A stretch of DNA of 64,000 nt, from contig WRLA01000003.1 of the NCBI GenBank assembly GCA_009777825.1, positions 1-64,000 on the forward strand, in the 5' to 3' direction. Positions 59,473-62,929 of this stretch are shown piece after piece. The notes under the pieces were generated by a model that worked only from the letters and a program-made list of their open reading frames with translations, was not told where the DNA came from and did not search any database. Within the stretch, counting starts at the first letter, position 1, and each line of letters opens with the position of its first letter. The position numbers were made by a program, and so were the translations under genes. Origin of the DNA: Bacteroidales bacterium (GTDB lineage: Bacteria > Bacteroidota > Bacteroidia > Bacteroidales > WRLA01).

Positions 59473-60612
59473 TTAAGATTTTAAATAATACATTTTAAAC
59501 CATAATTCAAAAGCAGGGTCAAGAAATATGGCTGTTGTTTTTGTTTTTTCAATAATATCAAGATATTGCAGTTTTTTCATGTTTTTCGACACATTATGAG
59601 ATGTGCCTAAACGATAATCCATCATGGTTTTTACAGAGGTAAATTGCGTTTCCTCGTTGGCGATGGCTTCTAACAGGTTTATTTGTGTTGTCGTCAAATC
59701 CTCTATTTCGCGTTGATATAAAATTTGATTGACTTGCAACATTCGCGCTAAGCAAATCGGTAATAATGCTTCGGTAGCAGTTGTGGTTGTATATTCCCAA
59801 ACATAATGCGCATACTGCTGAACATAATACGGATGTCCTTTCATGGTTGTAGCAATTTGATTCGCCAGAGTTTCTGAAATGGTTTTCCCTGTTTTCTTAA
59901 AACGTTCAACAATAAACGGTTCCCAATGTTCTACCGCAATTTTATCTAAAAGCATCATGTCTCCAAACAGATAAAAAGCCCTGTTTCTTTTGTTGAAAAT
60001 ATCCGACATCAAATGCCGCTTACTCCCGTATAAACAATAACTTACATTCTCGTGATATTGCCATACAGAACGCAACAATTTTTCAAAGTCCTCCGCTTCT
60101 TTGAAATTGTGAATATTTTGAAACTCATCAATACAAACAATGAGCCTGACATTTTGTTTTTTTGCAACTGTTTCGGGAAGGTTTAATATTTCGTCTTTAT
60201 GCTTTTTAAGTTCTTCGAGTTCAAAACTCAAACTGAAATCGCTGGTCGGGTCTACGCCGAATGTGATTTTAGGGACTAAATGTCTGAAAAAAACTTTCGT
60301 TGCCTCTATCCATTCGTCCCATTTTGTAGCAGTGATTTTAATGACCTCGCGGCTTAGTTTTTCGTAAAATTCTTCTTCATTCCGTATCGCAAACATATCA
60401 ATGAAACACCATTTTACCTGCTTGTTGGACGACGTTAACTGCGCTACCTGTTTTACCAAAGAGGATTTTCCCCAGCGGCGCGGCGAAATCAAAGCAGTAT
60501 TGATACCGCTTTTCACGTTAAGCCACAAATGGTTAATATCGTCCTTGCGGTTGACAAATTCTTCTCTTGCCACTGTGGCGCCAAACAAAAAAGGCGATTC
60601 TATTTCTTCCAT
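59473..60612 (-). CDS. AAA ATP-binding protein between kal and kce
   Basis: The 379-residue protein from MEEIESPFLFG has an N-terminal P-loop ISPRRWGKSSLVKQ near residue 40, a Walker B-type LIVCIDEFQNI near 160, and a C-terminal winged-helix part (NLLEAIANEETQFTSVKTMMDYRLG). It belongs to the archaeal-type ATPase group widespread in Bacteroidota, of unknown function. The longer frame to 60966 is a shadow of kal and is rejected. The leader contains a threefold 15-bp repeat. It has no evident role in lysine breakdown and looks like an insertion into the cluster. Confidence 0.85.
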   Translation of the reverse strand: MEEIESPFLFGATVAREEFVNRKDDINHLWLNVKSGINTALISPRRWGKSSLVKQVAQLTSSNKQVKWCFIDMFAIRNEEEFYEKLSREVIKITATKWDEWIEATKVFFRHLVPKITFGVDPTSDFSLSFELEELKKHKDEILNLPETVAKKQNVRLIVCIDEFQNIHNFKEAEDFEKLLRSVWQYHENVSYCLYGSKRHLMSDIFNKRNRAFYLFGDMMLLDKIAVEHWEPFIVERFKKTGKTISETLANQIATTMKGHPYYVQQYAHYVWEYTTTTATEALLPICLARMLQVNQILYQREIEDLTTTQINLLEAIANEETQFTSVKTMMDYRLGTSHNVSKNMKKLQYLDIIEKTKTTAIFLDPAFELWFKMYYLKS

Positions 60613-60663
60613 ATAAAATAAAATTTTGCGTTTATTTTCTACTAACGAAACTCCCCCGATTTT

Positions 60664-60712
60664 ATTGTACCATCTGGTCTTATACCATTTAGTCTTATAC
60701 CACTTGGTACAA
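60664..60712. repeat. Threefold 15-bp repeat in the ATPase leader
   Basis: Three tandem units of the type CTTATACCATTTAGT, each with an ACCA..TGGT-like palindromic core, precede the ATPase start by about 50-100 bases. They may be an operator array or a footprint of insertion. Confidence 0.6.
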
Positions 60713-60766
60713 CGTGTAAATTGCTGTAAAGCAATGTGATACAACGATTTTTTCGTGGAAATTTCC

Positions 60767-61159
60767 TCATTTTCTTTGACAATTTTTCGGTACCACGCAA
60801 GTCCCGCTGGCGCGACAAACCACCACCGGATCGTCCAGTACGTCGGCAGCCGAAGCGCTGATGTCGGTACGCGGCACGATGACCTTACGCGCCTCGAAAA
60901 CCATCTTACGGGAAGAGTTGCCGACGGCGGTAATCTCGCCAACGGCTTCGATGTAGTCGCCGGCATAAACGGGCGCTAAAAATTCGACATTGTCGTAAGC
61001 ACAGAACAGTCCTTCATCGCCATCGCGGATGATTAACAATTCCGTCGCCACATCGCCAAAAAGTTGAAGCATCTTCGCTCCATCAACCAAGTTGCCACCG
61101 TAGTGGGCATCGTGAGCGCTCATACGCACTCGAATCATTGAGGTTATTTTCTTATCCAT
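60767..61159 (-). CDS. kal: 3-aminobutyryl-CoA ammonia-lyase
   Basis: Kal removes ammonia from 3-aminobutyryl-CoA to give crotonyl-CoA. The 130-residue hotdog-fold protein from [17 protein letters not shown] shows the signature [18 protein letters not shown], the [12 protein letters not shown] strand and the helix-ending FEARKV. The start at 61159 is chosen because the longer frame crosses the promoter at 61189. It is the first gene of the kal-ATPase-kce-kdd run. The upstream CoA-transferase gene is separated from it by plus-strand genes. Confidence 0.93.
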
Positions 61160-61188
61160 TTTTGTATCGTTACATTTATTTTTTGCTG

Positions 61189-61196
61189 CAAAGGTA
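61189..61196 (-). promoter_or_regulatory. Promoter of kal
   Basis: TACCTTTG on the minus strand, 29 bases upstream of the kal ATG. Confidence 0.65.
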
Positions 61197-61277
61197 ATAC
61201 TTTTCGACGAAATATCAAGTTGCAAAAAATAATTTTCACAAATCATTATTTTTTCATTTCGGTATTATAAATATTTG

Positions 61278-61285
61278 TACCTTTG
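61278..61285 (+). promoter_or_regulatory. Promoter of the leader RNA and MauE module
   Basis: TACCTTTG on the plus strand, divergent from the kal promoter. The first gene downstream starts at 61741, so the leader would be about 450 bases long. Confidence 0.6.
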
Positions 61286-61289
61286 CCCC

Positions 61290-61550
61290 CGGTTTAATAA
61301 CATAAAATTTATTTGCATCATGTTGTAAAGGGAAATAAAGTGCGGATAGGCACATAATAGGACATATTGAAAAGGCATAGAACTTTGTTCTTTGCAGTCT
61401 GAAAATCTGGCGATTAGAAGACAGCATATAGAGGAAACGTTAAATGTTCGCGCGTAGGGCGTGGACTTGACTAATTTCTTATATGCAAGGTTACGCCAGA
61501 TACCACAGACAGCGGGAAACAGTTAGGTTTCACGCTGTTTTCTTTTTGCC
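61290..61550 (+). ncRNA. Candidate structured leader RNA or small RNA
   Basis: From the promoter at 61278 to about 61550 no real gene is seen, but the sequence folds readily. AGAAC-TTT-GTTCT is one hairpin near 61380. GGCGT (61458-61462) pairs with ACGCC (61493-61497) and CTTG with CAAG inside it. A strong hairpin at 61509-61538 follows. The order of stems, ending in a terminator-like hairpin with a T-rich tail, resembles a riboswitch-like leader or an independent small RNA. I cannot assign it to a known class. Confidence 0.5.
61509..61548 (+). terminator. Terminator-like hairpin in the leader
   Basis: ACAGCGGGAAAC and GTTTCACGCTGT pair at 11 of 12 positions around a six-base loop and are followed by TTTCTTTTT. 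It may end a short RNA or act as an attenuator of the lipoprotein-MauE genes. Confidence 0.6.
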
Positions 61551-61740
61551 CCAACCCGAAAATAATGAATGGCTATCATCATATAAGACAGAACCGCAAC
61601 TGTTCCCAAAAAACGCAGGGGAGGAACGAAATCTCTTGAAAAAACGGGCGGGTTATTTCCTACGAAAAGCCACACGAGTAGAAGGAACAAAAGAGTTTTA
61701 ATTTAAAACCTCACAATGTATAGGTTAATTGTATTTTGAG

Positions 61741-62016
61741 ATGAAAAAAGTAATTTTATTGTTAGGTTGTTTAGGTCTTTTGACTGTTGGTATTTTGGGC
61801 GTGTCCTGCAAAAAGGATGACGATAAAAAGGATAATTTTAAAGGATGCTCTTGTACACTCCGTTATGCTGATGGGGATAAAAGTACTGAGATTATCACGC
61901 CTGCTGACGCTCAGGAATTTGGCATAACCTCTTGTAAGAAGTTTCAAGAGCTTTGGGAGGCAACACACGGTTTCGAAGACGAAGGTATTATTTCTTACAC
62001 TTGTACCGATTTGTAA
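61741..62016 (+). CDS. Small cysteine-rich lipoprotein
   Basis: The 91-residue protein from MKKVILLLGCLG has a lipoprotein signal with lipobox GVSC, then a lysine/aspartate stretch (KKDDDKKDNFK) and a short mature part with cysteines in GCSCTLRY, TSCKKF and YTCTDL. The paired cysteines suggest disulphides, and the next gene encodes a MauE-thioredoxin protein that could make or maintain them. It starts about 190 bases after the terminator-like hairpin. No family is recognised. Confidence 0.7.
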   Translation: MKKVILLLGCLGLLTVGILGVSCKKDDDKKDNFKGCSCTLRYADGDKSTEIITPADAQEFGITSCKKFQELWEATHGFEDEGIISYTCTDL

Positions 62017-62017
62017 A

Positions 62018-62929
62018 ATGATTAACAAAACGACGCGAATACTATCCTCGCTTGCGGGGATAGTATTTTTAATATCGGGTATTGGAAAATCGTTGGCGGC
62101 ATACGATTTTTCGCAAATACTCATACAATACGGTTTTGAGGGTTTGCAGTTTCTTGCGCCGCTTATCATTGTGTTTGAGATTTTGGCAGGCTTGCTGTTG
62201 TTTTTTCATATTCGGTTGAGACTGACAAGTTTATTGTCGTTTTGCTTTGTCGTGGCGCTGTCGGCGGCGTATCTCTACGGGTACTTCTTTGCCAATATTA
62301 CTAATTGCGGCTGTTTTGGCTATTTCTCGCTTTTGAACATGTCGCCGTTTTTCACCGGTGTGCGCAATATTGTTTTGATGGGCATGTTGTTGTATGTTTT
62401 CCTGAAAAGCAACAATGGGTGTAAATTGGCAGACAGAGACGAAATGCTGATTATGGCTTGTATCTTATGCGCCGTATCCTTTGTTACCGGATATACCTAT
62501 ATGGAGCGCCAAAACGATACTACACAATACGTTACAGAGGGAAAACTTGTGAACATGAGGGTCGAAAATTCGGTGTTGGGCGAGTTTCTGACGCCTTCCA
62601 AAGATTCCACTTATTTGGTATTTGCATTTTCGTATTCCTGTCCGCACTGCTACAACTCCATCGAAAATCTGAAACAATATGAACGCTTGGGCGTTGTGGA
62701 CAAAGTTCTTGCCCTGTCATTTGCAACAGACAGCACAACCATGGCGAAGTTCAACGAGATATTTCATCCTGATTTTCAGATTATTAACTATTCGCCCAAA
62801 CAGATTTTCCGTCTGACCAATCAATTTCCCGTTTCATATTACATCAAAGACAATATGATAAAAATGGAAATACGGGGCGTGTTGCCCTGCGGCTACCTGC
62901 TACGACAACGGTTGGGGAAAAATAGATGA
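62018..62929 (+). CDS. MauE/DoxX-like membrane protein with C-terminal thioredoxin-like domain
   Basis: The 303-residue protein starts with a MauE-type four-helix membrane domain (GIVFLISGIGKSLAAYDF, then YGFEGLQFLAPLI, NCGCFG with a cysteine pair). A further helix (about 150-166) is followed by a thioredoxin-like domain with the redox motif CPHC in FSYSCPHCYNSIENL. It should act in disulphide exchange outside the cytoplasmic membrane. It follows the small cysteine-rich lipoprotein by one base, so the two are coupled and the lipoprotein is its likely partner. Confidence 0.85.
   Translation: MINKTTRILSSLAGIVFLISGIGKSLAAYDFSQILIQYGFEGLQFLAPLIIVFEILAGLLLFFHIRLRLTSLLSFCFVVALSAAYLYGYFFANITNCGCFGYFSLLNMSPFFTGVRNIVLMGMLLYVFLKSNNGCKLADRDEMLIMACILCAVSFVTGYTYMERQNDTTQYVTEGKLVNMRVENSVLGEFLTPSKDSTYLVFAFSYSCPHCYNSIENLKQYERLGVVDKVLALSFATDSTTMAKFNEIFHPDFQIINYSPKQIFRLTNQFPVSYYIKDNMIKMEIRGVLPCGYLLRQRLGKNR

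Follow-up and report, generated by a model that had tools for sequence, protein, structure and literature searches.

A probable transcription attenuator RNA, widespread and uncatalogued in Bacteroidota, in the leader of a lipoprotein gene

Introduction

Why should the gene for a 91-amino-acid lipoprotein be preceded by a leader of about 450 nt? Bacteroidota are a dominant gut phylum with few known RNA regulators. The gene lies at 61741–62016 of the window, by which we mean the whole 64,000-nt stretch analysed here, from contig WRLA01000003.1 of a Bacteroidales bacterium (assembly GCA_009777825.1); unless noted, all window features below are on its forward strand. The ORF encodes a cysteine-containing lipoprotein that belongs to no Pfam family and is followed by an ORF for a MauE-domain membrane protein with a C-terminal CxxC region (62018–62929; PF07291, E = 2.4e-16). 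On the other side of the leader are two divergent neighbours on the reverse strand, a 4HBT thioesterase ORF (60767–61246) and an AAA ATPase (ATPase_2) ORF (59473–60966), whose predicted starts overlap. A sequence-only reading of this DNA had noted the long leader and a terminator-like stem with a T tail within it, and had proposed a new riboswitch-like leader or a small RNA that controls exported disulphide proteins. Here we ask what the leader contains, how far its structure is conserved and which of these proposals the comparative evidence favors.

Results

Extent and folding of the leader

The leader begins at a promoter-like element, TACCTTTG (61278–61285), with the pattern TAnnTTTG, which we take to be the Bacteroidota promoter (−7) element; transcription would be expected to start at about 61291. 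No further TAnnTTTG occurs within 600 nt 5′ of the DUF805-like match described below, and none was found by reading 61689–61741. The proposed long leader is thus borne out, running for about 450 nt from TACCTTTG to the lipoprotein ATG at 61741 with no other such element between. Its two parts fold differently. The 259 bases from 61291 to 61549 reach −75.3 kcal/mol versus −53.7 ± 4.7 kcal/mol for shuffled sequences (z = −4.6; 0 of 200 shuffles), whereas 61550–61745 folds at chance level (z = +0.3), leaving the 3′ half unstructured by energy. Two other readings of the leader were dropped: a protein-coding reading (72-amino-acid ORF, 61483–61701), since the frame is not kept in other copies, and a cobalamin-like reading of 61590–61680 (ACCGCAACTGT, AGCCAC), since the Rfam match there is to DUF805.

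A structured RNA family

The first clue to the nature of the 5′ part came from by-eye alignment of the regions upstream of DUF805 copies in the same genome. Four of these (C1, C24, C28 and C14) are preceded, like the window copy, by a structured element of about 200–250 nt that ends in a U-run, and the helices of these elements keep their pairing although the sequences differ. As DNA similarity of the leader to relatives beyond the genus is almost nil, a structure model was needed; a consensus computed by RNAalifold from a plain MAFFT alignment broke down, since the register of the helices shifts. Six copies, five from this genome and one from a congener, went into model R1, which used only helix P1 and its flanks, with the distal arm blanked out, and which matches the element across other families of the order. 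These matches revealed a conserved distal hairpin (D), and a pattern scan of named genomes for this hairpin alone returned at least 117 stretches, nearly all from Bacteroidia; one match is labelled Paenibacillus, probably through a binning error. R1 matches nearly all of the pattern-selected loci on which it was run. Since R1 is blind to the hairpin and the scan relied on the hairpin alone, two non-overlapping definitions pick the same places.

Helix P1 consists of P1a (61396–61401 with 61506–61511) and P1b (61405–61412 with 61494–61501), separated by an internal loop whose two sides, RAA (61402–61404; alignment columns 8–10) and ACC[AU] (61502–61505; columns 230–233), are nearly invariant in an alignment of 81 copies. 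In this alignment, 96.9% of P1 cells are paired (99.0% in P1a and 95.3% in P1b) versus 54.6% after shuffling, with 489 two-sided changes. The covariation score is 1.043, versus 0.228 for shuffled columns and at most 0.14 with the partner slid; because the alignment was fitted to P1, these P1 values are favored by it, and the duplex test described below is independent of the alignment. G-U wobbles outnumber A-C mismatches in P1 (9 versus 2), and the distal hairpin contains a fixed U-G pair. Together, the covariation of P1 and the family-wide copies clearly establish conserved structure and show that 61291–61547 is one copy of a structured RNA family, which we call element A.

Element A in the window matches none of the 4227 Rfam 15 families at gathering threshold. 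At E values up to 10, the leader gave only a match to RF03081 in its 3′ part and a weak, negligible match to S15-Flavobacteria near the promoter, and at 35 loci carrying other copies no Rfam family matched element A. The parts consulted of the literature on Bacteroidota leaders, attenuators and RNA motifs hold no description of it, and a term check of the accessible portions of PMC2864571, PMC11109978, PMC8632094, PMC7366714, PMC10994844, PMC9723704 and PMC8040213 likewise found none. The supplement of PMC8040213, which lies outside this check, contains 3161 unnamed candidates, and element A could be among them.

Distribution

How widespread is this RNA? Of 247 genomes from the order, 99 carry element A according to the covariance search in other Bacteroidota that the sequence-only reading had called for (model R2, E ≤ 0.001). 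This is about 40% of those sampled, and the copy number ranges from one to a dozen or more, with 10 copies in this genome and at least 12–13 in several others. A sample of 198 genomes from across the phylum contained 25 carriers (this one included), among them members of other families and classes. Cultured carriers include the Bacteroides muris isolate NM69_E16B and Millionella massiliensis Marseille-P3215. Plasmid and phage records gave no match in one query by DNA similarity, a search that is insensitive for element A, and the distal-hairpin scan found none in viral contigs. Many copies lie 200–900 nt from contig ends (G018, G048, G071, G148 and G174), a pattern suggestive of repeated neighbouring sequence.

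Alternative pairings within element A

Behind P1 comes helix P2, in which GCATATA at 61424–61430 pairs with 61480–61486 according to fold and alignment; the 3′ strand is followed by a conserved AAGGUUA (61487–61493). P2 is followed by a hairpin formed by segments D5 (61431–61453, with core GTTCGCGC at 61446–61453) and D3 (61459–61471). Two further segments flank this arm. Segment T (61526–61535), just before the conserved U-rich run at 61536–61547 that would form the 3′ end of a terminated RNA, repeats D5 and is complementary to D3; segment F (61380–61395), directly 5′ of P1, is complementary to the start of D5.

We assessed these pairings by comparing duplex energies within one sequence (cognate) with those between sequences (permuted), after removal of near-identical copies. 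With relatedness not fully corrected, cognate pairing exceeded permuted pairing for P1 (z = −25.5), D5x:D3x (z = −13.7), D3:T (z = −8.0) and F:D5x (z = −8.0), and three unrelated control pairs showed no excess. The value for F was obtained with its window anchored to the preceding hairpin; a window first set too far upstream had given z = −2.7. A set of 54 copies came from the structure models, and just 9 of them conform to the scan pattern; in this set, D3:T reached z = −12.0 and F:D5 z = −8.6, versus −1.4 for the control. As judged by comparison of sequences, F:D5x, D5:D3 and D3:T are each supported by evolution.

Since D3 cannot pair with D5 and T simultaneously, D5:D3 and D3:T are alternatives. 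Their mean energies are near balance, at −22.4 kcal/mol for D5:D3 and about −26 kcal/mol for F:D5x (−7.4) plus D3:T (−18.7). In 49 of 58 copies the stronger helix is D5:D3, whose bases y and x form standard pairs in 63 of 66 sequences. For the window copy, the duplex energies are −18.8 kcal/mol for D3:T, −16.5 for D5:D3 and −7.5 for F with the D5 region.

What, then, is the partner of T? Its best local partners are no better than those of shuffled sequences (−5.4 versus −5.2 kcal/mol), and pairing with D3 is better than with any local strand in all 58 copies of one sample and in 53 of 54 of the other. As T pairs with D3 and not locally, the helix before the U-run is long-range, with D3 about 70 nt upstream; in the copies studied, D3:T is directly followed by the U-run. 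The terminator-like stem of the sequence-only reading is real in the window, where AGCGGGAAAC (61511–61520) can pair with GGTTTCACGC (61526–61535), followed by TGTTTTCTTTTT (61536–61547), but comparative evidence identifies the conserved partner of 61526–61535 as the distant GCGTGGACTTGAC at 61459–61471 and not the local strand. A simple terminator scan made no call for this local stem. Since its energy is −13.7 kcal/mol, the window copy could also terminate without D3.

The suggestion of a new riboswitch-like leader has fared well: a conserved structured RNA absent from Rfam occupies the 5′ end of the transcript and contains a putative internal switch that ends in a terminator-like helix and U-run.

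The 5′ region and small motifs

The promoter motif is a general feature of element A. Of 91 other copies, 76 have TAnnTT[TC]G no more than 130 nt upstream of P1, versus 9.7 ± 2.8 expected and 17 on the reverse strand. Between promoter and arm, the window leader contains a two-codon mini-ORF, AUG-UUG-UAA (61320–61328), and, by folding, a 5′ hairpin with GUGC/GCAC strands (61340–61353), followed by single-stranded AUAAUAGGACAUAUU; the hairpin is common to the same-genome copies C1, C24 and C14. A conserved single-stranded AGGACAUAU-like stretch is found in copies of element A. Mini-ORFs of the form AUG-NNN-stop are present in 17 of 58 leaders, versus 5.2 ± 2.0 expected from dinucleotide shuffles, an approximately threefold enrichment that makes them a candidate part of the sensor; a simple trp-like mechanism would need them closer to F than they are. 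The mini-ORF often lies 20–40 nt after the promoter, with AAA, ACA, GCA, GUA or AUA as second codon.

In 9 of 58 leaders, the stretch that separates element A from the start codon contains a further short motif, approximately CGCC(A/U)UUUGGGACUUGGGCAAA. Motifs of this type, for which Rfam gave no match, are found in most G080 copies (L272–L282) and at L118, L119, L129, L140, L164 and L167.

Genes downstream of element A

The next gene is co-oriented with element A in 46 cases and opposed in 2, whereas the upstream gene has no such bias (29:20). The distance from U-run to next gene is typically about 60 nt and mostly within about 130 nt; at 194 nt, it is longer than usual in the window. Most of the downstream products count as exported proteins or lipoproteins under a simple signal-sequence heuristic. 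Among the rest are HsdM, a type IIG enzyme, an EcoRI methylase, a type III Mod protein, GmrSD, SNF2-PLD helicases and small Cro-type HTH proteins. Such a gene set points to cis-regulation of variable accessory genes rather than to a disulphide-specific role: with type I, IIG, II and III methyltransferases, GmrSD, SNF2-PLD helicases and small HTH proteins among the products, the proposed control of exported disulphide proteins finds no support as a specific function.

One Cro-type HTH family (LIxxKLxExGxxVAWLAxxI...SIDTxLLxxIS) recurs as the first gene after element A (L266, L267, L268, L270, L125, L156, L163, L168 and L171), at some loci only about 20 nt after the U-run. These small proteins may possibly regulate element A or be autoregulated.

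The DUF805-like 3′ part

Downstream of element A, a motif at 61613–61688 matches the DUF805 RNA (RF03081) with 31.4 bits and E = 8.9e-4, below the gathering score of 51.1 bits. Like DUF805 RNAs, it closely precedes a start codon, with 52 nt between it and the ATG; it is a divergent DUF805-like copy that we do not file as a member. A DNA search located the variant three more times in this genome (twice on C14 and once on C29), and the DUF805 model itself has nine matches here, four of them above cut-off. In most relatives, DUF805 RNAs end about 9–30 nt short of the start codon, usually without element A, and the proteins encoded are mostly exported. At C24 and C28 the Rfam motif DUF805b sits between element A and DUF805. 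Element A and DUF805 are separate, combinable elements.

Some arrangements of DUF805 are of interest in their own right. At L046–L050 (G000 C38, C24, C28, C32 and C1), DUF805 is part of the reading frame and forms an N-terminal extension ahead of the signal sequence (for example, MSTHINVHETVAGVGNSRAMESETIQKNGVSPKNHRSRGN...), unlike its 5′ UTR position in relatives. L051 and L052 (G014 C350) and L055 and L056 (G040) carry serial DUF805 motifs, one per gene in clusters encoding exported proteins; such genomes have 16–18 copies each, some with an extra hairpin between the two halves. At L047:1540–1648, a long near-perfect palindrome shortly after DUF805 is read by Rfam as chance microRNA precursors.

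Discussion

Our findings make it probable that element A is a widespread, uncatalogued cis-acting transcription attenuator RNA of Bacteroidota. From the comparative data we infer that its pairings alternate, that D3:T terminates transcription and that the target is the adjacent gene. How might such a switch work? The order of parts is promoter, 5′ hairpin, segment F, long arm, T and U-run; the arm, closed by P1 (P1a, the AA/ACC internal loop and P1b) and P2, carries the D5:D3 hairpin. When D3 is paired with D5, the hairpin would be intact, T would be free and RNA polymerase would read through. When D3 pairs with T instead, the resulting helix and U-run would end transcription at about 61547, and pairing of F with the D5 region may promote this outcome by releasing D3. 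A signal could bias the choice; its reader may be the conserved P1 core together with the 5′ hairpin, a protein, or a ribosome positioned at the mini-ORF. The read-through RNA would carry the DUF805-like motif before the lipoprotein start codon.

Some features speak against an attenuator. D3 is unusually far from the U-run for the stem of an intrinsic terminator, D3:T crosses P1/P2, so that a stable pseudoknot is conceivable in place of an alternative state, and the downstream genes are too diverse to suggest a ligand. The window copy adds two further points, a local stem that could terminate without D3 and a gene that starts farther from the U-run than usual. In a static form of this idea, F:D5, D3:T and P1/P2 would be one fixed double pseudoknot that binds a protein or stabilises the mRNA, with D5:D3 as a folding intermediate. 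The two outer pairings are indeed conserved and compatible with each other and with P1; however, a mere intermediate would hardly account for a D5:D3 hairpin that is strongly conserved (z = −13.7; 63 of 66 paired) and mostly the stronger helix (49 of 58 copies), and we regard a fixed fold as improbable. Rather more plausible, though still unlikely, is that element A is the gene of a free trans-acting sRNA of about 250 nt with its own promoter and terminator, the copies possibly being paralogous regulators and the next gene being expressed by read-through or from a promoter of its own. Multiple copies per genome and the conserved single-stranded AGGACAUAU-like stretch would suit such an RNA. 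The small RNA of the sequence-only reading also gains from the promoter motif and U-run, which mark a complete short transcript, but action in cis is favored by the next gene, which is co-oriented 46:2 and typically starts about 60 nt further on, and the window gene has no second TAnnTTTG before it. Free sRNAs usually have a local terminator hairpin, and in element A this is absent as a conserved feature.

It could also be asked whether element A matters to the lipoprotein gene at all. If only the DUF805-like motif at 61613–61688 were functional, element A would be the end of an unrelated upstream transcript; DUF805 RNAs do precede the starts of exported proteins in many relatives, usually alone, and have nine matches here. 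Yet element A starts where the leader's own promoter lies, shows independent conservation and in most genomes precedes genes that have no DUF805 RNA, which makes this reading very improbable. We give almost no credence to a repeat or recombination site acting as DNA rather than RNA. Although element A is multi-copy and many copies lie near contig ends in fragmented genomes, its features are strand-specific (promoter 5′, U-run 3′, gene co-orientation, G-U over A-C in P1 and a fixed U-G pair in D5:D3), its helices vary in sequence with pairing kept, and the searches described above gave no match in viral contigs, plasmids or phages.

A structured leader that is present in about 40% of sampled genomes of the order, often in many copies, and absent from Rfam would be among the larger gaps in known Bacteroidota regulatory RNA. 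On the attenuator reading, surface lipoproteins and phage-defence genes would be under one RNA-level control, and the long-range terminator helix would be unusual in its own right. We also consider a bolder proposal, which we hold only tentatively and think somewhat more apt to fail than to succeed: that element A is a new class of signal-sensing attenuator, present in one to more than ten copies in many Bacteroidota genomes, whose long-range, pseudoknot-forming terminator helix switches a common regulon on or off in response to one shared signal, the regulon comprising genes for surface proteins, small HTH regulators and phage defence, including restriction-modification. Control by element A is directly testable in the two cultured carriers.

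How does element A compare with known systems? DUF805 RNA (RF03081) resembles the 3′ part of the leader, and long leaders in this genome often combine it or DUF805b (RF02914) with element A, which itself has no similarity to either; the window motif also stays below the gathering score. The Flavo-1, Bacteroidales-1, Bacteroides-1 and 6S-Flavo motifs (PMC2864571) are structured Bacteroidota RNAs as element A is, but all are in Rfam and none matched element A in the window at E values up to 10. As in riboswitches with terminator platforms, conserved unpaired core nucleotides (the RAA/ACC loop) lie within covarying helices upstream of a predicted switching terminator; unlike riboswitches, element A has a diverse gene set (surface, DNA modification and defence, HTH) and neither an Rfam riboswitch match nor a putative ligand. 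The closest parallel in layout is with trp-type attenuators, in which four segments pair as 1:2, 2:3 and 3:4. Element A shares with them mutually exclusive pairings of successive segments, a last pairing (the predicted terminator helix) followed by a U-run and a leader between promoter and gene. It differs in that no leader peptide with regulatory codons overlaps segment 1, the two-codon AUG-NNN-stop of 17 of 58 leaders lying farther upstream, in that its segments lie inside a conserved P1/P2 arm and its terminator stem is long-range, and in that the genes that follow are not biosynthetic. In kind, element A appears to be an attenuator-like leader, new as a family and in its long-range terminator.
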